NCBI RefSeq assembly: GCF_004402215.1 | Contig: NZ_SOEZ01000079.1 | Coordinates: 1 to 64,000, forward strand | Length of the DNA: 64,000 nt | Origin: Cryobacterium tagatosivorans | GTDB taxonomy: Bacteria > Actinomycetota > Actinomycetes > Actinomycetales > Microbacteriaceae | Reading direction: 5' to 3' | Shown here: positions 16,059 to 29,005 of the stretch, one piece after another | How the letters are laid out: each line of letters opens with the position of its first letter | Position numbering within the stretch: position 1 is the stretch's first letter | The notes under the pieces: model-generated | Seen by the model: only the letters and a program-made list of their open reading frames with translations | What the model was told of the DNA's origin: nothing | Databases searched by the model: none | Program-made: the position numbers and the translations under genes

Positions 16059-17108
16059 TCAGAGCTCGTTCTGCCTCGGGATGACGACCTGCTTGATGAT
16101 CATCAGGGCGGACGCCGCCACGGGGATCGCGATCAGCGCGCCCAGGAGGCCCAGCAGCGAGCCGCCGGCCAGCGCCGCGATCACGACGACGGCGCCCGGC
16201 ACCGCCACGGCGCGGCTCATGATGTGCGGGCTGAGCACGTATGCCTCCACCTGCATGTAGATCAGGTAGTAAATGGCCGCGGCGATGACGGTCTCCGTCG
16301 AGCTGCCGATGCCCGGGATCAGGCAGGTCAGCACGATGATCACCGATCCGGTGATCGTCCCGACGAGCGGGATCAGCGAGAACAGGAACGCGATGAACGC
16401 GAGCAGGGCCGGGAACGGCGCCCCGATGATCGACAGGAAGATGAAGCTGAGCACGCCGTTGCAGGCGGCGAGGGCGGCCTGGCCGACGACGTAGCGGCCG
16501 ACGGCGGTCGTGATCTGGTCGCTCAGGTCGGCGAAGCGTTCCCGCTTGGAGGCGGGCACGAGCTGGTACACACCGCGCTTCATGCTGTTGAGCGACGCGG
16601 TGAAGTAGAGGGTGAGGATGACGATGATCAGGGCGCCGAACAGGCCGCTGATGATCGCGAGGCCGGACTGGATGGCCGTCGTGGTGATGGTCGTGAGGTT
16701 CGTGCCGAGGAAATCGGTGGCCGACTTCACCACCGCGTCGACGTCGAGCCCGGGGAACTGCTTCTGGATGTCCGCCAGGAAGGTGGCGGTGTTGACCGCC
16801 TTGACCAGGTCGGGGATGGCCCGGGAGAGCGCGGACACCTGGTCGACGATGATCGGGACCACGGCGAAGACCAGCCCGGTGAGCACGCCGACGACACCCG
16901 CGACGACCGTGAGGATCGCCGCCCAGCGGGGGAACTTGCGCTTCTGCAGCCAGGACACCGCCGGGTCGAGGCCGAGCGCGATGAACAGCGCCGCACCGAT
17001 GTAGACGATGATCGTCTGCAGCGACACCACCGACGTGATGATGAGCAGGCCCAGGCCGACGCCCAGCGTACCGATCAGGCCGACGCGAAACGCGTTCTGG
17101 ATCTTCAC
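16059..17108 (-). CDS. AI-2E/PerM-family permease
   Basis: A 349-residue multi-pass membrane protein of the AI-2E transporter (PF01594) family. Hydrophobic segments at about 10-30, 32-50 and 65-90 are followed by a large amphipathic stretch (95-150), then five more segments including the conserved I-P-L-V-G-T-I region and P-x-I-M-S-R-A-V. The family includes autoinducer exporters and Na+/H+ antiporters; the substrate here is unknown. GTG 17108 has GGGGGA upstream. It is 24 bases downstream of the coiled-coil gene and probably co-transcribed with it. Confidence 0.87.
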   Translation of the reverse strand: MKIQNAFRVGLIGTLGVGLGLLIITSVVSLQTIIVYIGAALFIALGLDPAVSWLQKRKFPRWAAILTVVAGVVGVLTGLVFAVVPIIVDQVSALSRAIPDLVKAVNTATFLADIQKQFPGLDVDAVVKSATDFLGTNLTTITTTAIQSGLAIISGLFGALIIVILTLYFTASLNSMKRGVYQLVPASKRERFADLSDQITTAVGRYVVGQAALAACNGVLSFIFLSIIGAPFPALLAFIAFLFSLIPLVGTITGSVIIVLTCLIPGIGSSTETVIAAAIYYLIYMQVEAYVLSPHIMSRAVAVPGAVVVIAALAGGSLLGLLGALIAIPVAASALMIIKQVVIPRQNEL

Positions 17109-17132
17109 GCGGATTCCCCCAAAATCTCGGAC

Positions 17133-18746
17133 CTACTTGTCGGCGTTGTTGACTCTCTCCGCCTGAGTGAGCACGCTGCGGAGGCTCTCGAAGTAGCCGG
17201 CCACCGCGTCGCGCTCAATCCTAATCTGGGAGAGGCGGTCTTCCGCGTCGGAGACCAGCAGGCGTGTCCGCTTGGTCGTGTCCCTGGTGAGGGCCTTGGC
17301 CTTCGCCTCGGCGTCGCGAACGATGCGGTCCGCGTCGGCCTGAGCCTGCTTCCGCTGGGCCGCGGCTTCCTCGCGGGCGCCCGTGTCGAGCGTTTCGTTG
17401 ATCGCACGCAGTTCGAGGGTGCGGGCTGTGGTGTCGGCGAGCTGGGTGTCGGCCTCGGCCTGGAACGTGTTCAGCAGCAGCACCGCCTCCTGGTGACGGG
17501 ACAGGTGCTCCTGCTCCGCCTCGTCCCGCCTGGCCTTCAGCTCCAGTTCGAGGTCGGCCCTGGTCTGGTCGATCTCGCGCCGCAGCTTGGCTGCCTCGCG
17601 TTCGCCCTTCTTCCGCCCGGCCGTCAGCTTGTTCTCGAGGTCGATCCTGGCCTGCTCGGCTTCGGCGACGAAGTCCGCCGTGGCCTGCTCGTTCTCGCGG
17701 GCCAGGTCCGCCCTGGCCTGCTCCAGCTCCGACGCCAGGTCTGCCCTGGCCTTGTCGATCCTGCGCGCGGCCGCGGCTCGTTCGGCGTCCAGCTCGCGGC
17801 CCAGGTCCGTGTGCGCCTGCTCATGCTCGATCTGGCGGGCGGTCCGGTCCGCCTCCACCTCACGGGCGAGGTCGGTTCGGGTCTGCTCGACCTGCTCCGC
17901 CAGCGACGCCCGGGTCGTTTCGGCATCGTGGGCCAGCTCGATCCGCGACTGCTCGCCGTCGCGGGCGAGGTCGAGGCGTGCCTGTTCGGTCTCGGCGGCC
18001 AGGTCGATCCGGGCCTGCTCGGTCTCACGTGCCAGGTCGGCCCGCTCCTGGTCGAGCTCGTGCGCCACCTCAGCGCGGGTGAGTTCGGTCTCTGCGGTCA
18101 GCCCGGCGGCGACCTCGCGCGCCACGGTCGCCTCGCGCTGCGCGACAACGCGCACCTCGGCGGCCTCCCGCTCGGCCTCGGAGCGCAACGCGGCGGCTTC
18201 ACGCTTGACCGTAGCCCGCACTTCAGCGGCCTCGGTGGCTACGGCCCCGCGGATCGCGGCGGCCGCCTGCACGGCGTCCTGGCTGAGCGACGCGGCTTCT
18301 GCCCGGGCGGCGGCGAGCAGAGCGTCGGCCTCGGCCTGCGCGTCGTCGAGCATGCGCCCGGCCCGCACCGTCGCATCGGAGAGCGTGCTCTCGGCGCGCT
18401 CGGTGGCTTCCCGGACCAGTTCCTCGACCTCGCCGGCAGCGGAGGAGCGCAGCTTCTCCGCGTCGATGTCGGCCTGGGCGATCACGCGGGTCGACTGTTC
18501 CTCGGCGACGCGCAGGGTGTTCTCGAGCTTCGTGCCCAGCCCGGAGAACGTGGGGCTGCCCACTTCTTCGATCTCGGCGCTCAGGTCATCGATCCGGGCG
18601 GTGAGCCGCTTGATTTCCTTGCCGGCCTCCGCGCCCTGGGTGTTGGCCTGGATGAGGTCGCGACGCAGGCCCTGGATGGCCTTGTCGACCTCGTCCTTGT
18701 CGTACCCGCGAAAAACCTGGGTGAATTCAGCGTCGTCTACCGCCAC
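17133..18746 (-). CDS. DivIVA-type, hendecad-repeat coiled-coil protein (FilP/Scy-like)
   Basis: A 537-residue, almost entirely helical protein. Residues 1-35 (E-F-T-Q-V-F-R-G-Y-D-K-D-E-V-D) are a DivIVA-like N-terminal module. Residues 40-225 are Ala/Glu/Arg coiled coil. Residues 227-369 are thirteen uninterrupted 11-residue repeats of the type L-A-R-E-x-E-Q-A-R-x-D. The rest is further coiled coil ending near 530. There is no membrane segment. This is the build of actinobacterial cytoskeletal scaffolds such as FilP and Scy that work with DivIVA in polar growth; that role is inferred. GTG start has AAGGAGGAG upstream. Confidence 0.75.
   Translation of the reverse strand: MAVDDAEFTQVFRGYDKDEVDKAIQGLRRDLIQANTQGAEAGKEIKRLTARIDDLSAEIEEVGSPTFSGLGTKLENTLRVAEEQSTRVIAQADIDAEKLRSSAAGEVEELVREATERAESTLSDATVRAGRMLDDAQAEADALLAAARAEAASLSQDAVQAAAAIRGAVATEAAEVRATVKREAAALRSEAEREAAEVRVVAQREATVAREVAAGLTAETELTRAEVAHELDQERADLARETEQARIDLAAETEQARLDLARDGEQSRIELAHDAETTRASLAEQVEQTRTDLAREVEADRTARQIEHEQAHTDLGRELDAERAAAARRIDKARADLASELEQARADLARENEQATADFVAEAEQARIDLENKLTAGRKKGEREAAKLRREIDQTRADLELELKARRDEAEQEHLSRHQEAVLLLNTFQAEADTQLADTTARTLELRAINETLDTGAREEAAAQRKQAQADADRIVRDAEAKAKALTRDTTKRTRLLVSDAEDRLSQIRIERDAVAGYFESLRSVLTQAERVNNADK
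17640..18068 (-). repeat. Thirteen 33-bp coding units (11-residue repeats)
   Basis: The stretch encoding residues 227-369 of the coiled-coil protein is 13 consecutive 33-bp units with no insertion. The best conserved positions give L-A-x-E-x-E-Q-A-R-x-D. DNA identity between units is high enough (recurrent ctggcctgctc and gccaggtc on the plus strand) to suggest growth by tandem duplication. Confidence 0.85.
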
Positions 18747-18818: not shown

Positions 18819-19062
18819 GTGCATGCCGGGCGCTCCGGGCCCCTCCCATCTTCAGGGGCCCGCATCCCGGCCCCATCCCGACCCCGAATCCCGTCACCCC
18901 TCCCGTGCCAGGAGGGGCCAGCGAGGCTTCCGGAGACTATTAGGCGCCTCTCAGGGGCATCAAGTATCGTAGAACGACTGTGTCTGTTGCCATCCGGACG
19001 CGAAAAGCGTCGTGCACACCCAGCGCGGCACTCGCCGGTCGGCAACATTAGGAAGGTTCTAC

Positions 19063-20925
19063 GTGCGTTTCGTTCTTGCCATCGTGGCATTCGTTCTCGC
19101 GGCCGTGATGATCATGCTCGGCATCGCGCAGCGAACGGTTTTTCTGGAACCGGCATCCACCAGCCTCAGCGTGACCGTCGAGGGCGGCGACCGGTATGCG
19201 GTCATCACCTCGAAGGCGCTCCGGGCCAACCCGGGCAACCAGACGATCACGGTCTCCGGACCGGGCACCGTTTTCCTGGCCTACGGCCGGTCCGCGGATG
19301 TCGACGCCTGGCTCTCCGAGGAGGCGCACGCGGAAATCGGGTTCGCACGCACGACCGGCAAGCTGACCAGCACGAGCGCCGGCGAAGCGGACCCGGCGGC
19401 GAGCCCCACCGCCACCCCGACCGCAGTCCCCACCCCGTCGGCCACCGCGGCGCCCGACGCCCCGGCCGCGGATGCCGAGCCCGCCGTCGCCGGCGCGAAC
19501 CCGGCCGGGTCCGACCTCTGGCTCGAGGAGTTCACCGCCGACCGCGACCTCAAGACCCGGATCAACGTTCCGGCCGGAATCTCGGTGATCGTCGCCAGCG
19601 ACGGCACCCAGCCGGCCCCCACGAAGATCACCCTGGACTGGCCCGCCGACAATGCGACGCCGCTGGCCGGACCGCTGATCGCCGGGGGAGCGGTCCTGCT
19701 CCTGATCGGACTCATCCTGTACCTGCTCGCGCTGATGCACATGCGCCGCTCCCGGGGCCCGCGCCGCAACCTGCCGAAGGGCCCGCGGATGCCGCGCCTT
19801 CCCCGCGCCCCGCGGCCGAAGTCGATCAAGGCCAATGAGATCACCGGCCCCCGACGCTCGATCACCCGGTCATTCCTCGCGGTCGTGCCCGTTGTCCTCG
19901 TGTCGAGCCTCGCGCTCAGCGGCTGCTCGGCCGATTTCTGGCCGAGCACGTCCTCGAAGCCGAGCGCCGCGGCCAGCCCCACCGCGGGTGCCTCCGATGC
20001 GCCGAAACAAGCCGAGGATGTCCCCCCGCCCGCAGTCACCGTGCCCCAGCTCGAGCGCATCGTGCGCAAGATCGCCGTGCTCACCAGGGACGCGGACGTC
20101 GCCCTGGACGCCGAGGCCCTCGCGACCAGGTTCACCGGCCCGGCGCTCGAACAACGGCTGGCGAACTACACGATCCGGACCAAGATCAAGAAGTTCGCGG
20201 CGCTGCCGGCGCTGCCGGCGTCGCCGCTCACGCTGACCCTGCCGCAGCAGTCATCGGCCTGGCCGCGCGTGGTGATGACCGTGATCCTGGACAAGGACAA
20301 CCCGACCGTCGCGCCGACGGCCATCGTGCTCCGGCAGGAGAACCCCCGCGCCAACTACCTCGTCGAATACGCCGTCCAGCTCGAGGCCGCAGCGCAGGTG
20401 CCCGGCGTGGCTCCGGCCGTGATCGGCGCGCCCCTCATCGCCCCCGACTCCAAGCTGCTTCTGATGCCGCCGGAGCAGATCGCGGCAGCCTACGCCGACG
20501 TCCTGCTGAAGGGCGAGGCGAGCGAGTTCTTCGACCTCTTCGAGGCCAAGGGAGACACGTTCCGCACCCAGGTCGGCCTGGAGAAGAAGACCGAGAAGAA
20601 GGCCAAGCTGCCCAAGACGGCCTCGATCGCGTTCGGCACCGCGGTCGGCACCGGCAAGACCATCGCCCTGGCGACCAACGACTCCGGGAGCATCGTCGCC
20701 GTGAGCATCAAGGAGACGGAGACCGTCAAGCCCGTCGATGCCGGCGCGACCGTCAGCCCCGAGGGTGCGAGCAAGGCCCTGTCCGGCGTCTCGGCGACGG
20801 CCAAGGGCATCCAGAGCATCTACGGCGATCAGCTCCTCTTCCATGTGCCTGCCGCCGGTTCTACCGACAAAATCGTTCTCCTTGGCTTCGCCCAGGGACT
20901 GATCTCATCAGCGGAGCTCAAATGA
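19063..20925 (+). CDS. Envelope protein with internal lipobox, unknown function
   Basis: A 620-residue protein I cannot assign to a named family. TM1 is residues 1-20. Residues 25-200 are an exported region with a Pro/Ala/Thr-rich low-complexity part (about 103-150). TM2 is about 201-226, followed by an Arg/Lys/Pro-rich cytosolic loop (227-268). A second hydrophobic stretch (269-287) ends in L-A-L-S-G-C (Cys288), a good lipobox. An exported C-terminal domain (about 320-620) has V-P-Q-L-E-R-I near its start. It may be a fusion of a membrane protein and a lipoprotein. GTG 19063 is set by AGGAAGG at 19050. Its stop overlaps the next start. Confidence 0.7.
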   Translation: MRFVLAIVAFVLAAVMIMLGIAQRTVFLEPASTSLSVTVEGGDRYAVITSKALRANPGNQTITVSGPGTVFLAYGRSADVDAWLSEEAHAEIGFARTTGKLTSTSAGEADPAASPTATPTAVPTPSATAAPDAPAADAEPAVAGANPAGSDLWLEEFTADRDLKTRINVPAGISVIVASDGTQPAPTKITLDWPADNATPLAGPLIAGGAVLLLIGLILYLLALMHMRRSRGPRRNLPKGPRMPRLPRAPRPKSIKANEITGPRRSITRSFLAVVPVVLVSSLALSGCSADFWPSTSSKPSAAASPTAGASDAPKQAEDVPPPAVTVPQLERIVRKIAVLTRDADVALDAEALATRFTGPALEQRLANYTIRTKIKKFAALPALPASPLTLTLPQQSSAWPRVVMTVILDKDNPTVAPTAIVLRQENPRANYLVEYAVQLEAAAQVPGVAPAVIGAPLIAPDSKLLLMPPEQIAAAYADVLLKGEASEFFDLFEAKGDTFRTQVGLEKKTEKKAKLPKTASIAFGTAVGTGKTIALATNDSGSIVAVSIKETETVKPVDAGATVSPEGASKALSGVSATAKGIQSIYGDQLLFHVPAAGSTDKIVLLGFAQGLISSAELK

Positions 20926-21887
20926 CCAACGTCCCACCATCCGGCGTCAACCTGCGCGGGGCCGTCGACCTGTCCTCGCTCGTGAACCGCCCGGCCGCTC
21001 CGGCCCCCGGCGCACCGGCCGTGCCCGCCGCCGGCGGTCCGGTGCCCGTGCCCAGTCTCGTCCTCGAGGGCACCGACGCGAATTTCGGTGAGGTGCTCGA
21101 GCTGTCGATGACCGTCCCCGTCATCGTCGACCTGTGGGCCGAGTGGTGCGAGCCCTGCAAGCAGCTCACCCCCGTGCTCGAGAAGCTCATCGCGGAGTAC
21201 GACGGCAGGTTCGTCCTGGCCAAGGTCGACGTTGATTCGAACCCGCAGCTGTCCCAGGCCTTCGCGGCGCAGTCGATCCCCACGGTCGCAGCCGTGATCG
21301 GCGGCCAGCCCGTGCAGCTCTTCAGCGGAGCGATCCCCGAGGCGCAAGTGCGCGAGGTGTTCGTGCGGGTTCTCGAACTCGCCGCCCAGCACGGCGTGAC
21401 CGGGACCGCCAGCGCCCCGGAGGGAGCCGGGGTCCAGGACACGGCCGCCGAGACCGTCCCGGCCGAACCGGAACTCCCGCCGCACCACCGCGAGGCCTAC
21501 GAGGCCATTGAACGCGGCGACTACGACCTGGCCATCACCGAATACGGCACGGCCCTGGCCAAGGACCCCCGCGACCAGATGGCCGTCGCCGGGCTCGCCC
21601 AGGTTCGCCTGCTGGCGCGGCTCCAGGGAAGGTCGATCGCCGAGATCCGGTCCGCCGCCGCGGCCGCGCCCGACGATCTCGACGCCCAGCTCCTCGTCGC
21701 CGACCTCGACCTGTCGGGCGGACACGTCGAAGACGCCTTCGACCGCCTGCTGACGCTTTTCCCCGCCCAGGACGCGGCCGGCAAGAACACCATCCGCGAG
21801 CGCATCCTCGAGCTCTTCCAGGTCGTCGGCCTCGAGGACCCCCGGGTGCCGCCGACTCGCTCCCGGCTCACCGCGCTGCTCTACTAA
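20922..21887 (+). CDS. Thioredoxin-domain protein with TPR tail (YbbN/CnoX-like)
   Basis: A 321-residue protein. After a Pro/Ala-rich 45-residue leader, a thioredoxin fold (about 50-155) carries W-C-E-P-C (Cys76/Cys79) and the cis-Pro in S-I-P-T. The C-terminal half (185-321) is helical, with TPR-like units (A-I-E-R-G-D-Y-D-L-A-I-T-E-Y). This matches YbbN/CnoX, a redox-linked holdase that hands clients to GroEL, except that E. coli CnoX has lost the CxxC that is kept here. No signal peptide is visible, so it is probably cytosolic. ATG overlaps the upstream stop (ATGA). Confidence 0.85.
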   Translation: MTNVPPSGVNLRGAVDLSSLVNRPAAPAPGAPAVPAAGGPVPVPSLVLEGTDANFGEVLELSMTVPVIVDLWAEWCEPCKQLTPVLEKLIAEYDGRFVLAKVDVDSNPQLSQAFAAQSIPTVAAVIGGQPVQLFSGAIPEAQVREVFVRVLELAAQHGVTGTASAPEGAGVQDTAAETVPAEPELPPHHREAYEAIERGDYDLAITEYGTALAKDPRDQMAVAGLAQVRLLARLQGRSIAEIRSAAAAAPDDLDAQLLVADLDLSGGHVEDAFDRLLTLFPAQDAAGKNTIRERILELFQVVGLEDPRVPPTRSRLTALLY

Positions 21888-21989: not shown

Positions 21990-24233
21990 TTACGGACGGC
22001 GGAGCTTCAGCCAGAGTCCGGCCAGCGGGGGCAGCGTCAGCGTCGCGGATGCCGGCCGGCCGGCCCACGGTTCGTCGGTCGCAGTGACGCCGCCGAGATT
22101 GCCGACTCCGGAGCCGCCGAAGTCGGCGGCATCCGTGTTGAGGATCTCTTCCCACTCACCGGCGAAGGGCAGGCCGATGCGGTGGTCGTTATGCGGATGC
22201 CCGGCGAAGTTGAAGATGCAGGCCACGGGGTTGCCGTCGTTGTCCCAGCGCAGGAACGAGACCACGTTCTGGGTCGCCCCGCCGCCGTCGAGCATCTCGA
22301 GGCCGCCGGCGTCGTTGTCACGAGCCCAGAGGCTGGAGGTGGCCCGGTACACCCGGTTGAGCTGGCCGACGAGGTTGAACAGGCCGCGATGGGCGGGCTG
22401 GTCGAGCATCCACCAGTCCAGGCCCCTGGCCTCGCTCCACTCCGAGCGCTGGCCGAATTCCTGCCCCATGAACAGGAGCTGCTTGCCGGGGTGAGCCCAC
22501 ATGAACGACAGGTAGGCGCGCACATTGGCGAGCTGCTGCCAGGAATCTCCGGGCATCTTCGAGACCAACGAGCCCTTGCCGTGCACGACCTCGTCGTGGC
22601 TGATCGGCAGCAGGAAGTTCTCGCTGAAGGCGTAGACGAAGGAGAAGGTGATCTCGTTGTGGTGGTACGAACGGTACATCGGGTCGACGTGCATGTACTC
22701 GAGCGTGTCGTGCATCCAGCCCATGTTCCATTTGAAGCCGAAGCCGAGCCCGCCGGTCGAGGTGGGCGCCGTGACGCCGCCCCAGTTCGTTGACTCCTCT
22801 GCGATCATGACCGTGCCGGGGTTGCGCTTGTACGCGGTCGCCGTCACCTCCTGCAACAGGCTGATCGCCTCCAGGTTCTCGTTTCCGCCGTGGATGTTCG
22901 GCAGCCAGGCCCCGTCCTCCCTGGAGTAGTCGAGGTAGAGCATCGAGGCGACGGCGTCGACCCGCAGGCCGTCGATGTGGAACTCCTCCAGCCAGTACAG
23001 CGCATTGGCGACGAGGAAGTTGCGCACCTGCTTCTGGCCGAAGTCGAAGACGTAGGTGCCCCAGTCCATCTGCTCGCCGCGCCGGGGGTCGGGGTGTTCG
23101 TAGAGCGCCTGCCCGTCGAACCGCGCCAACGCGAAGTCGTCCTTGGGGAAGTGGCCGGGCACCCAGTCCATGATCACGCCGATGCCGGCCTGGTGCAGCC
23201 GGTCGATCAGGTAGCGCAGGTCGTCCGGGTGGCCGAACCGGCTCGTCGGCGCGTAATAGCCGGTGACCTGGTAGCCCCAGGAGCCACCGAACGGATGCTC
23301 CGACAGCGGCATGAACTCGACGTGCGTGTAGGCCAGCTCGTGCAGGTACCCGATGAGCTCGTCCGCCAGGTCCCGGTAGCCGAGCCCCGGTCGCCAGGAA
23401 CCCACGTGCATCTCGTAGATGCTCATCGGCTGGTCGTGCGGGTCGGTGGCCGACCGCGTTCGCAGCCACTCGTCATCCGCCCACTGGTAGTCGGACGTGC
23501 CGATCACGGACGCCGTCTTCGGCGGAACCTCCGTGTAGCGGGCCATCGGGTCGGCCTTCCGCACCCAGTCGCCCGACTGCGCGAGCATCTCGAACTTGTA
23601 GTTGGCGCCGGGGTCGAGGCCGGGGATGAACAGCTCCCACACCCCGGTACTGCCCATGTTGCGCATGGCGTGGGTCGCGCCGCTCCAGCCGTTGAAGTCG
23701 CCGATGACCCGCGCGGCCTGCGCGTGCGGCGCCCAGACGGAGAAGGATGTCCCACTCGTGCTGCCGAGGACGCCCGCGTGCTCGCGGTGGTGGGCGCCGA
23801 GCACGTCCCAGAGCCGCTCGTGGCGACCCTCGCCGATCAGGTGCAGGTCGAGTTCGCCGAGCGTGGGCAGGTAGCGGTAAGGGTCGTCGGCGATCCAGTT
23901 GGGCGCGCCCTCGTAGAGGGTCTCCAGGGTGTAGTCCTGCAGGCCGAGGGTGCTGACGCCCTGCCAGATGCCCTGGTCGAGGTGCGTGAGCTCGATGTGG
24001 GCGCCGCTGGCGAGGACCGCGAAGACCTCGGTCGCGAGCGGCCGGAGGGCACGGATGACGACGAGCGGGTCCTGCACGCCGGCCGCGTTGACGAGGTGCT
24101 GGCCGAGGACCTCGTGCGGGTTGTAGTAGCGCCCTTCGGCGACCGCCCGGAGAACGTGGGCCGGGACGGCTGGGACGCTCGCGTGCGAGCCGTTCGCCGG
24201 TCCGTCGACCGGTCCGTCTGCCGCGTGCCTCAT
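21990..24233 (-). CDS. glgB: 1,4-alpha-glucan branching enzyme
   Basis: GlgB (GH13), 747 residues, which makes alpha-1,6 branches. The N-terminal N1 region and CBM48-like domain (about 20-230) precede the (beta/alpha)8 barrel with D-G-L-R-V-D-A-V-A (nucleophile Asp), A-E-E-S (acid/base Glu) and S-H-D-E-V. The C-terminal beta domain ends with L-K-L-R-R. Length fits the actinobacterial long form. Lies 46 bases after glgE on the same strand: a glgE-glgB operon. In the GlgE pathway GlgB branches the maltosyl-extended chains. Confidence 0.96.
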   Translation of the reverse strand: MRHAADGPVDGPANGSHASVPAVPAHVLRAVAEGRYYNPHEVLGQHLVNAAGVQDPLVVIRALRPLATEVFAVLASGAHIELTHLDQGIWQGVSTLGLQDYTLETLYEGAPNWIADDPYRYLPTLGELDLHLIGEGRHERLWDVLGAHHREHAGVLGSTSGTSFSVWAPHAQAARVIGDFNGWSGATHAMRNMGSTGVWELFIPGLDPGANYKFEMLAQSGDWVRKADPMARYTEVPPKTASVIGTSDYQWADDEWLRTRSATDPHDQPMSIYEMHVGSWRPGLGYRDLADELIGYLHELAYTHVEFMPLSEHPFGGSWGYQVTGYYAPTSRFGHPDDLRYLIDRLHQAGIGVIMDWVPGHFPKDDFALARFDGQALYEHPDPRRGEQMDWGTYVFDFGQKQVRNFLVANALYWLEEFHIDGLRVDAVASMLYLDYSREDGAWLPNIHGGNENLEAISLLQEVTATAYKRNPGTVMIAEESTNWGGVTAPTSTGGLGFGFKWNMGWMHDTLEYMHVDPMYRSYHHNEITFSFVYAFSENFLLPISHDEVVHGKGSLVSKMPGDSWQQLANVRAYLSFMWAHPGKQLLFMGQEFGQRSEWSEARGLDWWMLDQPAHRGLFNLVGQLNRVYRATSSLWARDNDAGGLEMLDGGGATQNVVSFLRWDNDGNPVACIFNFAGHPHNDHRIGLPFAGEWEEILNTDAADFGGSGVGNLGGVTATDEPWAGRPASATLTLPPLAGLWLKLRRP

Positions 24234-24279
24234 CCGTGCCGTCCGTTCGTTCGTGGTGACTGGTTCATGAGCGTAGCCT

Positions 24280-26334
24280 TCATGCGCGCGGACCCGTCAC
24301 GTGCAGGATGTGCACCGGTTCGGTGAACGCGTCGAGCCGCACGTAGTTGTCGGCGGACCAGGTCCACTCGGCGCCGGAGACGAGGTCGCGCACCGTGAAG
24401 CCCTCGCCGCGTTTGAGGCCGAACTGGGTGACATCGAGGTGCACCAGGGTCTCGCGGACCGAGTGCGGGTCGACGTTGGCGACGATGATGAGGGTGTCCG
24501 GCCGGCCGGTGCCGGTGAAGGCCGCGTCCAGGTGCTTGCTGAAGACGAGCACCGACTCGTCGTCGCTCTTGTGGATGTGCAGGTTGCGCAGCTGCCGCAG
24601 CGCGGGGTGCTCGGCACGGATGCCCGTGAGCCTGGTCAGGAAGGGCGCGAGCGACTTGCCGGCCTCCTCGGCCTGCGCGAAGTTGCGCGGACGGAACTCG
24701 TACTTCTCGTTGTCGATGTTCTCCTCGGCGCCGGGCCTGGCAACGCTCTCGTACAGCTCGAAGCCCGAGTAGACCCCCCAGGTCGGTGCGGCGGTCGCGG
24801 CCAGCGCCGCCCTGATCTTGAAGGCGGCCGGTCCGCCGAACTGCAGGAACTCCGACAGGATGTCGGGGGTGTTCACGAACAGGTTCGGCCGGAGGAAGTC
24901 GGCAGTGTCGTGTGCGAGGCCGCCGAAGAACTCCTCGAGTTCCAGCTTCGTGTTGCGCCAGGTGAAGTAGGTGTACGACTGCTGGAAACCCGCCTTGGCC
25001 AGTCCCTGGAGCAGTGCCGGACGGGTGAAGGCCTCGGCCAGGAAGACGACCTCCGGGTACTCGGCGTTGATCTCGTTGATCACCCACTCCCAGAAGTCGA
25101 GCGGTTTGGTGTGCGGGTTGTCGACGCGGAAGATGCTCACCCCGAGGCCGATCCAGTAGCGCAGGATTCGCAGCGACTCGGCGCGGATGCCCGCCGGATC
25201 GTTGTCGAAGTTGATCGGGTAGATGTCCTGGTACTTCTTGGGCGGATTCTCGGCGTAGGCGATTGTGCCGTCCGGCAGGGTGGTGAACCACTCCGGGTGT
25301 GCCGCCACCCAGGGGTGGTCGGGGGAGGCCTGCAGGGCGAAGTCGAGCGCGATCTCGATTCCCGCCTTGCTCGCCTGCCCCAGGAAGTACCGGAAGTCCG
25401 CGACGGTGCCGAGGTCGGGGTGGATCGCGTCGTGGCCGCCGTCGGCGGACCCGATCGCCCACGGCGAGCCGGGGTCGTTCGGCCCGGCATCAAGCGTGTT
25501 GTTCGGGCCCTTGCGATAGGCCCGGCCGATCGGGTGGATCGGCGGCAGGTAGACCACGTCGAAGCCCATCGCCGCGACCTGGGGCAGCCGCCTGGCCGCG
25601 GTCCGGAAGGTGCCGCTCTTCCAGGAGCCGTCCGGGAGCCGTTTGGCGCCCTCGGAGCGAGGGAAGAACTCGTACCAGGAGCCCACGCCGGCCCGAGCCC
25701 GCTCGACGACCACGGTGCGGGGCTCTGACACGCTCTCGAGGCTGCTGATCGGACGAAGCGCGATCGCCGCGTTGAGTTTGTCGTCGCTGATCACGGCCAG
25801 GCGGGTGTCGACCGGCAGCCCCCGGTCGGCCAGCGTCTTCGCCGCGGCCAGGACCAGTCGGCGTTCGGCGATCGGCCGCGCCTTGTCGAGGCCGGCCGCG
25901 TCCAGCAGCCGGGCGCCGATCGTGAACATCAGCTCGACGTCGATGCCCGCCGGGATCTTGATCGCGGCGTTGTGCTCCCACGACGCCCAGTCGTCGGCGT
26001 AGGCGCGCACGCGGTACACCCAGCGTCCCTGGTCGCCCAGCTGCACGAGGGTTTCCCACCGATCCGTTCCCGGCGCCTTCAGGCTCATCGGGTGGCGGGT
26101 CTCCGTGCCGTCAGGGGCGGTGAGCAGCAGGGTGACGCCGATCAGGTCGTGGCCTTCGCGGAAGGCGGTCGCGCGGAACGGTACAACCTCGCCGGCGAAC
26201 GCCTTCGCGGGCCAGAGATCGTCGTTCAGCTGCGGCGACAGGTCGAGGATCGGAATCCGGCCGATCTTCGGGGGCGCCCCGGCCAGCCTGGTCGAAGCGT
26301 GCGGGTCGGGGAGTGTCTTTGCTGTCTTAGCCAC
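24280..26334 (-). CDS. glgE: Alpha-1,4-glucan:maltose-1-phosphate maltosyltransferase
   Basis: GlgE (GH13_3), 684 residues, which transfers maltose from maltose 1-phosphate to growing alpha-glucan. A beta-sandwich N domain (about 20-120) precedes the barrel, with R-V-D-N-P-H (nucleophile Asp), F-L-A-E-A-F (acid/base Glu) and the typical P-x-x-Y-Q-D-I-Y-P-I segment. GTG 26334 is preferred: the family starts just before P-x-I-G-R-I-P-I, and TACGGT is 6 nt upstream, so the gene looks leaderless. TreS and Pep2, the usual source of maltose 1-phosphate, are not in this window. Confidence 0.95.
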   Translation of the reverse strand: MAKTAKTLPDPHASTRLAGAPPKIGRIPILDLSPQLNDDLWPAKAFAGEVVPFRATAFREGHDLIGVTLLLTAPDGTETRHPMSLKAPGTDRWETLVQLGDQGRWVYRVRAYADDWASWEHNAAIKIPAGIDVELMFTIGARLLDAAGLDKARPIAERRLVLAAAKTLADRGLPVDTRLAVISDDKLNAAIALRPISSLESVSEPRTVVVERARAGVGSWYEFFPRSEGAKRLPDGSWKSGTFRTAARRLPQVAAMGFDVVYLPPIHPIGRAYRKGPNNTLDAGPNDPGSPWAIGSADGGHDAIHPDLGTVADFRYFLGQASKAGIEIALDFALQASPDHPWVAAHPEWFTTLPDGTIAYAENPPKKYQDIYPINFDNDPAGIRAESLRILRYWIGLGVSIFRVDNPHTKPLDFWEWVINEINAEYPEVVFLAEAFTRPALLQGLAKAGFQQSYTYFTWRNTKLELEEFFGGLAHDTADFLRPNLFVNTPDILSEFLQFGGPAAFKIRAALAATAAPTWGVYSGFELYESVARPGAEENIDNEKYEFRPRNFAQAEEAGKSLAPFLTRLTGIRAEHPALRQLRNLHIHKSDDESVLVFSKHLDAAFTGTGRPDTLIIVANVDPHSVRETLVHLDVTQFGLKRGEGFTVRDLVSGAEWTWSADNYVRLDAFTEPVHILHVTGPRA

Positions 26335-26340
26335 CAGTCG

Positions 26341-26346
26341 ACCGTA
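26341..26346 (-). promoter_or_regulatory. Candidate -10, leaderless glgE
   Basis: TACGGT on the minus strand, spacer of 6 nt to GTG 26334. It shares an 82-base divergent gap with the glgP promoter. Confidence 0.5.
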
Positions 26347-26403
26347 GCGCGAATTGATTCGGCGGCGCTGCACTGATTTCCCCATTCGACACATTGCGCA
26401 CCA

Positions 26404-26409
26404 TAGGGT
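26404..26409 (+). promoter_or_regulatory. Candidate -10, leaderless glgP
   Basis: TAGGGT is followed by 7 nt and GTG 26417, with no ribosome-binding sequence. Confidence 0.5.
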
Positions 26410-26416
26410 TGACCTC

Positions 26417-29005
26417 GTGAAGGCGATCCGCAAATTTACCATCCGTGCCGTCCTGCCCGAGCCGCTCGCCGCGCTCGACGAGCTGGCCGGGAACCTGCGC
26501 TGGTCGTGGCATGAACCGACCCGGCGGCTGTTCGAACACATCGCGCCGGAGCTGTGGCGCGGCAGCGGCAACGACCCCGTCGCGCTCCTCGGCGCCGTCG
26601 ATCCCGCCCGGCTGGCCGCGCTCGCCGCGGACGCCGGTTACGTCACCCGGGTCAACGCCCTCCGTGACGACCTGCGCCGGTATCTCGAACAGCCCCGCTG
26701 GTACCAGCGCCTCGAGGGTGACAAGCCCGCCGCCATCGCCTACTTCTCACCGGAGTTCGGTATCGCGGCCGCACTTCCGCAGTACTCCGGCGGCCTCGGC
26801 ATCCTGGCCGGCGACCACCTGAAGAGCGCCTCCGACCTGGGCCTGCCGCTGGTGGGCGTCGGCCTGTTCTACCGGGCGGGGTATTTCAGCCAGGCCATCT
26901 CCGCCGACGGCTGGCAGATGGAACGGTACCCGCTGCTCGACCCCGACGGCCTGCCGCTGTCGGTCCTGCGCCGCCCGGACGGCTCCGACGTGCAGGTCTC
27001 GCTGGCGTTGCCCGACGGCCGCACGCTCAACGCCCGGGTCTGGCAGGCGAGGGTCGGCCGCATCCGCCTGCTCATGCTCGACACCGACATCCCCGAGAAC
27101 CCCGACGACCTGCGCCTGGTCACCGACCGCCTCTACGGCGGCGGCGGCGAGCACCGCCTGCTGCAGGAACTCCTGCTCGGCATCGGCGGGGCCCGCGCCG
27201 TGAAGCTGTGGAGCGCCCTCAGCGGCAACCCGGAGCCCGAGGTGTTCCACACCAACGAGGGCCATGCCGGGTTCCTCGGCCTGGAGCGCATTTCCAGCCT
27301 CATCGGCGAGGGCCTGAGCTTCAACGAGGCGTTGCAGGTGGCGCGGGCCGGCACCGTCTTCACGACCCACACGCCCGTCGCGGCCGGCATCGACCGGTTC
27401 GAGCGGGACCTGATCCGTCGGTACTTCGAAACGGATCTCCTGCCCGGCGTCGCGGTCGACGACCTGCTCGCCCTCGGCGCAGAGAACTACGAGGGCGGTT
27501 CCCCCGACGTCTTCAACATGGCCATCATGGGCCTTCGGCTCGGCCAGCACGCTAACGGGGTCTCGAAGCTGCACGGCGAGGTCAGCCGCCGCATGTTCAA
27601 GGGCCTCTGGCCCGGCTTCGACGCGGCCGACGTGCCCATCGACTCGATCACCAACGGTGTGCACGCCCCGACCTGGACCGACCCGGAGCTGCTCGAGCTC
27701 GCGCAGGACCGCCTGGGCGCAAGCGACACCTCGACCGCCGACTGGGCCTCCGCGGCCGTCACCGACCACGACCTGTGGTCCGTGCGGGGCCGGATGCGCC
27801 TGCAGTTCGTCGAGGACGCGAGAAGGCGCCTGCTGGCGGCCTGGCGCGAACAGAACCCGGGCGGCATCCCCCCGGCCTGGATCGGCCAGGTGTTCGACCC
27901 GAACGTGCTCACGATCGGCTTCGCCCGCCGGGTGCCGACCTACAAGCGCCTGACCCTCATGCTGCACGACCCCGAACGGCTGCGCGCCCTCCTGCTGCAC
28001 CCCGAGCACCCGATCCAGATCGTCATCGCCGGCAAGTCGCATCCCGCCGACGACGAGGGCAAACGCCTGATCCAGCAGATCGTGAAGTTCGCCGCCGACC
28101 CGGAGTTGCGCACGCGCATCGCCTTCCTGCCCGACTACAATATCGCGATGGCCCAGCTGATGTACCCGGGAACCGACGTCTGGCTGAACAACCCGCTGCG
28201 GCCGCTGGAGGCCTGCGGCACCTCGGGGATGAAGGCCGCCCTGAACGGCGGGCTGAACCTGTCGATCCTCGACGGCTGGTGGCCGGAGTACTTCGACGGC
28301 GTCAACGGCTGGGCGATCCCGTCCGCGGACGCCGCCGGCGACCCGGCGGAACGCGACCGGCTCGAGGCGAACGCGCTCTATGACCTGATCGAACACCAGG
28401 TCGCCCCGCCGTTCTACGAGCGCAACGGCGACGGCGTCCCGGAACGCTGGGTCCGGGCCATCCGTCACACCCTGGCGACCCTGTCGCCCGAGCTGAGCGC
28501 CGACCGGATGGTGCGCGAATACGTGGAGCGCCTGTATCGGCCGGCCGCCCGCTACGAGGCGTTGCTCTCGGGCAACGACTACCGTGCCGCCCGGGAACTC
28601 GCCGCCTGGAAGAGCAGGATCATCGCGGCCTGGCCGGGAGTGGCCGTCGCCCACGTCGAGTCGGGCGGGGTGGTCTCCGTGCCGCAGGTCGGCGATGACC
28701 TGCACCTGCGCGCCCACGTCCAGCTGAACGGCCTCGCCGCCGGGGACGTCACCGTCGAGGTGGTCTACGGCAAGAGCCTGGTCGGCGACGACCTCAGCGA
28801 CGTGGAGATCCAGGCACTCGAGCCGGACGGCGCGCCCGACCCGGACGACGTCACGGGTTCGTCCACGGGCGGCGTCCCGACCCTGTTCACCGGCACGGTC
28901 GAGCTCGACCGGGCCGGCGCGTTCGGGTACACGGTGCGGGTCGTGCCGATGAACGACCTGCTGATCAGCTCGGCCGAGATGGGCCTGGTCGCCATCGCGG
29001 GCTAG
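26417..29005 (+). CDS. glgP: Alpha-glucan (glycogen) phosphorylase, DUF3417 type
   Basis: Glucan phosphorylase of the DUF3417-containing clade, 862 residues, releasing glucose 1-phosphate from alpha-1,4-glucan ends. The DUF3417 domain (about 10-120, with L-R-W-S-W-H) precedes the GT35 core: Y-F-S-P-E-F-G, S-G-G-L-G-I-L-A-G-D-H, H-T-N-E-G-H, and the PLP region G-T-S-G-M-K-A-A with the cofactor Lys. A beta-rich C-terminal domain of about 120 residues follows. It is divergent from glgE, so glucan elongation and breakdown genes share one 82-base promoter region. Confidence 0.95.
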   Translation: MKAIRKFTIRAVLPEPLAALDELAGNLRWSWHEPTRRLFEHIAPELWRGSGNDPVALLGAVDPARLAALAADAGYVTRVNALRDDLRRYLEQPRWYQRLEGDKPAAIAYFSPEFGIAAALPQYSGGLGILAGDHLKSASDLGLPLVGVGLFYRAGYFSQAISADGWQMERYPLLDPDGLPLSVLRRPDGSDVQVSLALPDGRTLNARVWQARVGRIRLLMLDTDIPENPDDLRLVTDRLYGGGGEHRLLQELLLGIGGARAVKLWSALSGNPEPEVFHTNEGHAGFLGLERISSLIGEGLSFNEALQVARAGTVFTTHTPVAAGIDRFERDLIRRYFETDLLPGVAVDDLLALGAENYEGGSPDVFNMAIMGLRLGQHANGVSKLHGEVSRRMFKGLWPGFDAADVPIDSITNGVHAPTWTDPELLELAQDRLGASDTSTADWASAAVTDHDLWSVRGRMRLQFVEDARRRLLAAWREQNPGGIPPAWIGQVFDPNVLTIGFARRVPTYKRLTLMLHDPERLRALLLHPEHPIQIVIAGKSHPADDEGKRLIQQIVKFAADPELRTRIAFLPDYNIAMAQLMYPGTDVWLNNPLRPLEACGTSGMKAALNGGLNLSILDGWWPEYFDGVNGWAIPSADAAGDPAERDRLEANALYDLIEHQVAPPFYERNGDGVPERWVRAIRHTLATLSPELSADRMVREYVERLYRPAARYEALLSGNDYRAARELAAWKSRIIAAWPGVAVAHVESGGVVSVPQVGDDLHLRAHVQLNGLAAGDVTVEVVYGKSLVGDDLSDVEIQALEPDGAPDPDDVTGSSTGGVPTLFTGTVELDRAGAFGYTVRVVPMNDLLISSAEMGLVAIAG

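Follow-up and report, generated by a model that had tools for sequence, protein, structure and literature searches.

Organization of the locus

The window (the whole stretch of 64,000 nucleotides that was analyzed) codes for a protein that we refer to as the fused open reading frame (ORF), since its two halves are separate genes in many other bacteria. Its features are compiled in Table 1. Hydropathy analysis delineates three main hydrophobic segments (about residues 1–24, 200–227 and 266–290); three further short stretches exceed the threshold, all of them within folded domains. The loop between the second and the third segment contains 12 Lys/Arg and a single Asp/Glu, giving a net charge of +11 (+13 if the loop is cut at the hydropathy-derived ends). 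It is followed by residues 269–288 (RSFLAVVPVVLVSSLALSGC), in which residue 269 corresponds to position 19867 and the codon of Cys288, the sole Cys of the protein, to 19924–19926. The first-pass annotation had claimed two membrane segments, a very basic loop and then a lipoprotein signal at residues 269–288; this is exactly what we find, and the coordinates agree.

No Pfam domain scored above its cut-off in the fused ORF (DUF6232 was matched at an E-value of 0.016). The genome is Cryobacterium-like: among the named relatives in the scan, which possibly lacked the window's own records, C. psychrotolerans is the closest (84%). Two other regions of the window, both on the minus strand, may be mentioned. 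At 16059–18746 an AI-2E family transporter adjoins a long protein that looks like a coiled coil and has a DivIVA N-terminus, and at 21990–26571 glgB and glgE are convergent to the fused-ORF operon.

Table 1. Features of the fused ORF and its surroundings (positions in the window)
Feature	Position	Strand	Basis
Shine-Dalgarno-like AGGAAGG ahead of the GTG start	19050..19056	+	sequence
Fused ORF, 620 codons plus stop	19063..20925	+	reading frame, GTG start at 19063
Membrane segment 1, residues 2–25	19066..19137	+	helix in structure model; hydropathy
N-half ectodomain, predicted beta-sandwich	19153..19650	+	model pLDDT 86.7; weak jelly-roll/TNF-like matches
Membrane segment 2, residues 202–230	19666..19752	+	helix in structure model; hydropathy
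Basic loop, residues 231–268, predicted cytosolic	19753..19866	+	charge count
In-frame ATG (Met243), candidate internal start, 45 codons ahead of Cys288	19789..19791	+	GAAGG at 19776–19780
Internal lipoprotein signal peptide, residues 269–287, Lsp cut predicted after 287	19867..19923	+	
Lipobox L-S-G-C, Cys288 the predicted diacylated first mature residue	19915..19926	+	Cys in 153/161 homologs
Predicted mature lipoprotein, residues 288–620, distant SCO2278-family homolog	19924..20922	+	
NTF2-like domain 1, residues 323–442, weak fold match	20029..20388	+	
NTF2-like domain 2, residues 459–617, weak fold match	20437..20913	+	
Thioredoxin-TPR gene, CEPC motif	20922..21887	+	start overlaps the fused ORF stop as ATGA, 20922–20925

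Internal lipoprotein signal

Residues 269–288 have the attributes of a lipoprotein signal: a basic n-region, an uncharged h-region and a lipobox ending in Cys. The L-S-G-C288 motif agrees with the consensus Leu-Ala/Ser-Gly/Ala-Cys (positions −3 to +1) given in the part of a review (PMC9360617) that deals with the lipobox. The departure is in the placement, as the signal occupies residues 269–287 instead of the N-terminus. Signal peptides located mid-protein are usually taken for one more membrane segment.

To see how often such a signal arises, we used a strict pattern made up of a basic n-region, a hydrophobic uncharged stretch and a lipobox. It matched 3 of the 319 stop-to-stop segments of at least 100 residues in the window. 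Two of these matches resemble ordinary N-terminal signals, and the one in the fused ORF is the only internal one. Just 4 of 5000 shuffles of the fused protein matched; together with the conservation of the Cys described below, this rules out a chance lipobox.

Conservation within the Microbacteriaceae

A homolog is present in all 57 genomes of the genus and in 149 of the 150 genomes of the family, covering 85/85 sampled genera; we take this family (f1) to be the Microbacteriaceae from the names of relatives. We read 143 of the 150 family genomes, the exceptions being G463 (no match), G469, G537, G567, G584, G590 and G555. Leaving out one locus with a broken frame (L090 in G483) gives 142, and 19 more genomes of the genus bring the set to 161. 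All of these loci read as single frames (87/89 in the first set and 74/74 further ones), and profiles built from the named loci detect both halves in every one of the 161. Two more cases were left out of the counts: G555, recovered as two pieces (L125 and L126), and L124, which comes from an 83% complete genome (G008) and is broken into three frames.

Of the 161 homologs, 153 have a Cys at the lipobox column, and in 136 of these 153 it is the sole Cys of the protein. The surrounding signal is conserved as well. The lipobox pattern fits 151/153 Cys-bearing homologs, the net charge of the n-region (15 residues up to the last Lys/Arg) is at least +2 in 152/153, and the spacing from the last Lys/Arg to the Cys is 14–24 residues (median 18). 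In the named set, consisting of the 72 of 80 loci that passed the reading filter plus the window (73 in total), Cys is found in 69, the remaining four being from Leifsonia or uncultured Leifsonia.

Several family members are unusual. At L090 (1975–3375 and the preceding frame) about 20 codons of the C-half are repeated after the second membrane segment and the frame is changed. We considered a natural re-split and rejected it in favor of a probable assembly fault, because the frame change adjoins the repeat and because in the sister genome G555 the gene is divided between two contigs. N-halves are longer in L092, L094 and L096, with 416–469 residues ahead of the Cys compared to 243–336 in the other 47 rows listed. 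The 0.9 Mb reduced genome G466 retains the fused gene (L087), which has six Cys residues and an odd lipobox, TSIAC.

Split homologs outside the family

Across the order, own family included, the C-half profile finds matches in 181 of 198 genomes. We examined 60 loci outside the family, of which 59 are from the order and one is from another order of the class. The first-pass annotation had proposed checking whether homologs are split into two genes, and here the answer is clear. In 47 of the 60 loci, representing 16 families, the two halves are encoded by distinct genes lying side by side, and the C-half on its own is an ordinary lipoprotein, with the lipobox Cys at residue 17–44 of the gene product in 47/47 (taking as the start of the C-gene the start codon closest to the N-gene stop). 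The two halves share one frame in another 12 loci, and in L203 the N-half was not detected. The N-gene stop and the lipoprotein start overlap by 4 nt (ATGA/GTGA-type) in 38 of the 47 split loci; the offset is −1 in six and different in three. This gene junction corresponds in position to the basic loop of the fused ORF.

The third gene, thioredoxin-TPR, lies downstream on the same strand in 58/60 loci, the two exceptions being L201 (contig end) and L217 (match upstream). The split operon is colinear with the locus in the window, with both halves homologous and the same third gene. It differs in that the halves are encoded and translated separately, in most cases with the 4-nt stop/start overlap, and in that the C-gene has an N-terminal signal of its own. 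We know of no name for this operon.

According to a rival reading, translation of the lipoprotein begins within the loop, at an internal start codon that is a relic of the former gene start, either in addition to the fused chain or in place of it. In the window, Met243 is preceded by GAAGG (Table 1), and 68 of 87 homologs have an in-frame ATG 14–70 codons ahead of the Cys. However, a start codon combined with a Shine-Dalgarno-like word occurs in only 20/87, ten of them with ATG, the window being among these ten. Moreover, in three fused proteins from outside the family (L177, L202 and L375) the sole start codon 14–45 codons ahead of the Cys is a GTG with no Shine-Dalgarno-like word. Such starts are too few for internal initiation to be a general explanation, and as a general mechanism it was ruled out. 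In addition, the fused chain would persist anyway. Internal initiation may occur in the window as an addition to the fused chain; as an account of the lipoprotein we consider it very improbable.

Fusion history

Outside the family we collected 18 loci with fused frames, plus L375, which represents a second genome of the L202 genus and is likewise fused. Phylogenetic analysis was based on both halves (93 rows, 511 columns); the resulting tree is unrooted and comes from a quick search, with warnings for 30 rows of odd letter make-up and three long rows. On this tree the fused state needs three changes, which we read as three fusions. One of them corresponds to a clade that includes the own family together with families f2 and f79 (SH-aLRT 98), and the other two are single rows, L177 (f80) and L202 (f88). 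We infer that the split state is ancestral, because the row from the other order (L217) is split and the C-half relatives in family f5, presumably Streptomyces according to the name of the NCBIfam model, stand alone.

The hydrophobic signal is kept in every fused protein examined. The lipobox was also kept after fusion in f79 (6/6), L177 and L202, and is absent from all ten fused proteins of f2. In f79 the fused ORF of L142, L150 and L157 is followed by a second N-half relative, a short paralog. In L377 this short paralog (L377:4486-5265) is placed after the thioredoxin-TPR gene.

Loss of the lipobox and Ala-X-Ala sites

Eight of the 161 Microbacteriaceae homologs do not have the Cys, and these losses need six changes on a tree that is unrooted, was computed with no mixture model and has long branches that meet (L087/L113 and L108/L122). 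We asked what replaces the Cys. An Ala-X-Ala motif at positions −5 to +12 of the Cys column is present in 8/8 Cys-less versus 22/153 Cys-bearing homologs (Fisher's test, 6e-7, uncorrected for kinship). For windows that end at +12 and start either at the Cys column or immediately behind it, the counts are 6/8 and 18/153 (p 1.4e-4). In Leifsonia the replacement is plain, with AGAAFA/DG in four of four sequences. Ala-X-Ala is a loose motif and the outcome depends on the window chosen. Once kinship is corrected for, six independent pairs remain, of which 3–4 are concordant and none is discordant (p 0.125–0.25), which agrees with the trend but by itself is not significant.

The fused proteins of f2 show a similar tendency. 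Ala-X-Ala occurs within 12 residues past the hydrophobic core in 9/10 of them (the exception, L143, has no such site), compared to 0/8 lipobox-bearing fused loci outside the family in the same window (Fisher's test, 4e-4, uncorrected for kinship). A wider window that includes the core end gives 9/10 versus 6/8, that is, no difference. Sites of this kind resemble those of signal peptidase I (SPase I), and their presence where the lipobox has been lost fits selection that favors cleavage over a third anchor. A third segment serving solely to anchor the protein in the membrane would not be expected to have the Cys or an SPase-I-like replacement.

These data bear on the simplest alternative, namely, that the third segment stays uncut, so that the product is a three-TM protein with a tethered C-domain and an incidental or structural Cys. 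The segment is hydrophobic enough to span the membrane, and direct subunit fusions are common. Yet the Cys has been retained almost throughout the family despite usually being the only one in the protein, and the equivalent segment is the signal of a free lipoprotein in all split relatives. Cys losses are accompanied by Ala-X-Ala sites, within the limits of window and kinship given above. The other two membrane segments serve as internal controls: a lipobox is found at the end of TM1 in 2/85 homologs and at the end of TM2 in 0/87. Taken together, this makes an uncut three-TM protein unlikely. Another possibility is that Cys288 is lipidated by Lgt and the chain is left uncut, resulting in a lipidated three-TM protein. 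Lgt recognizes the lipobox, and normal lipoprotein maturation passes through an uncut lipidated intermediate. This alternative leaves the SPase-I-like sites of the Cys-less lineages unexplained, and we give it the least credence of all the readings considered here.

Structure models and relationship to SCO2278

In the N-half model (pLDDT 86.7), two TM helices flank a beta-sandwich, for which the matches are weak and TNF/C1q-like; a Pro/Thr/Ala-rich insert in the ectodomain (about residues 110–145) is modeled with lower confidence. The top VIA-align row for this half is CDC50 (Z 8.2), in which merely 64 residues are aligned, and we draw nothing from this match. The C-half model (pLDDT 88.7) consists of two alpha/beta units, each with weak fold similarity to NTF2-like domains. 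Unit 1 (residues 323–442) resembles the intermembrane region of PARC6/ARC6 with Z up to 7.7, the best match having an rmsd of 2.5 over 109 residues, and unit 2 (residues 459–617) resembles DotI, TraM and CagV (Z 5.0–5.6). Foldseek returned no match for the C-half at an E-value of 0.001 or better (best 0.019). The fold similarity to these NTF2-like proteins comes with no functional link to the lipoprotein half.

The C-half aligns to positions 30–317 of 320 of the NCBIfam model NF053531 (SCO2278) with an E-value of 1.2e-7 (4.2e-8 in a whole-genome search with this model), and the score of 30.9 bits is below the curated cut-off of 210. Homology to the SCO2278 family thus extends along the mature domain. 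The SCO2278 lipoproteins differ in being stand-alone, with no N-half within the fetched flanks of L026–L035. More broadly, the SCO2278 model matches at as many as four places per f5 genome (L026–L035, L050–L055; four in G227), again with no N-half in the fetched flanks. SCO2278 appears as a hypothetical protein in a figure legend of PMC5733086.

Thioredoxin-TPR gene

The first-pass annotation had also suggested that the fused gene is coupled to a thioredoxin-TPR chaperone gene, which could serve the folding of the fused protein. The coupling is real, as seen from the ATGA overlap, and is conserved in the outside loci (58/60); the role in folding found no support. Inspection of the thioredoxin-TPR sequence by eye revealed no evident signal peptide at the protein start. 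Furthermore, in 136 of the 153 Cys-bearing homologs there is no disulfide to make, because the sole Cys is the one that would be lipidated; for these single-Cys proteins a disulfide helper is ruled out. Since the thioredoxin-TPR protein has no evident signal peptide and most homologs have no spare Cys, disulfide help in folding is unlikely. The gene product may instead be a chaperone or a regulatory link on the cytosolic side.

Proposed maturation of the fused protein

The first-pass annotation had proposed that one translation product would yield both a membrane protein and a separate lipoprotein if Lgt and Lsp act on the signal. This polyprotein reading gains support from the comparative tests: split genes in 16 families, a signal kept through three fusions, lipobox loss accompanied by Ala-X-Ala, and the presence of the enzymes. 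Both Lsp (PF01252) and Lgt (PF01790) are found in the genome above their cut-offs. A second, partial Lsp match (positions 88–139 of 142) is located at G000:C49:12016-12159, in an open frame of 146 residues.

The following sequence of events can be proposed. Two overlapping co-translated genes, one for a two-TM envelope protein and the other for a lipoprotein, would have merged with the signal peptide of the lipoprotein retained. In the fused chain, TM1 would insert outward and TM2 back inward, the basic loop remaining cytosolic. Sec would treat the third segment like an ordinary signal peptide. Lgt would then add diacylglycerol to Cys288, and Lsp would cut ahead of it. One product would be the two-TM protein (residues 1–287, calculated mass 29.7 kDa), with the spent signal helix attached unless trimmed. 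The other would be the lipoprotein (residues 288–620, 34.6 kDa) on the outer side of the same membrane, in a one-to-one ratio with the first. In the Cys-less lineages SPase I would cut instead, and the C-domain would be freed.

Judging from sequence comparisons, we consider it highly probable that the fused ORF codes for a natural bacterial polyprotein and that processing by Lgt/Lsp (or SPase I) splits it into a two-TM protein and a lipoprotein at the cell surface. The conserved adjacency of the two halves suggests that they form one complex. On balance, we also favor a broader proposal, with less assurance: that signal peptidases act as polyprotein-maturation proteases in bacteria, the gene pairs of a membrane complex having been fused three times with the second signal kept, Lsp and SPase I having been swapped several times, and fusion locking a membrane protein and its surface partner into one-to-one delivery.

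Precedents and implications

Cellular polyproteins are rare in bacteria. A precedent comes from Bradyrhizobium: FbcH, a cytochrome b/c1 precursor encoded by one ORF, has an internal signal peptide and is cleaved to give two membrane subunits. The fused ORF is similar in being a single bacterial ORF with an internal signal and two products (predicted here). Also as expected for an FbcH-type protein, its halves are separate genes elsewhere (47/60), the second with its own signal. In contrast, FbcH involves signal peptidase I and cytochrome subunits, whereas the fused ORF has a lipobox for Lgt/Lsp and its family, unlike FbcH, displays several switches to SPase-I-like sites. Relative to the FbcH precedent, the novelty lies in the lipobox, in the three fusions and in the switches from one peptidase type to another. 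A literature search that covered few subscription journals returned nothing on an internal lipobox or on a lipoprotein polyprotein like the fused ORF.

The split, fused-lipobox and fused Ala-X-Ala forms constitute a natural series, which makes the question directly testable. If the polyprotein reading is true, the annotation of such ORFs as three-TM proteins would be wrong, and Lsp inhibitors would affect more than N-terminal signals. Other annotated multi-TM proteins with a lipobox in mid-protein may be of the same kind. As for the family itself, the whole of it seems to use the lipoprotein pathway for cutting one chain into two.
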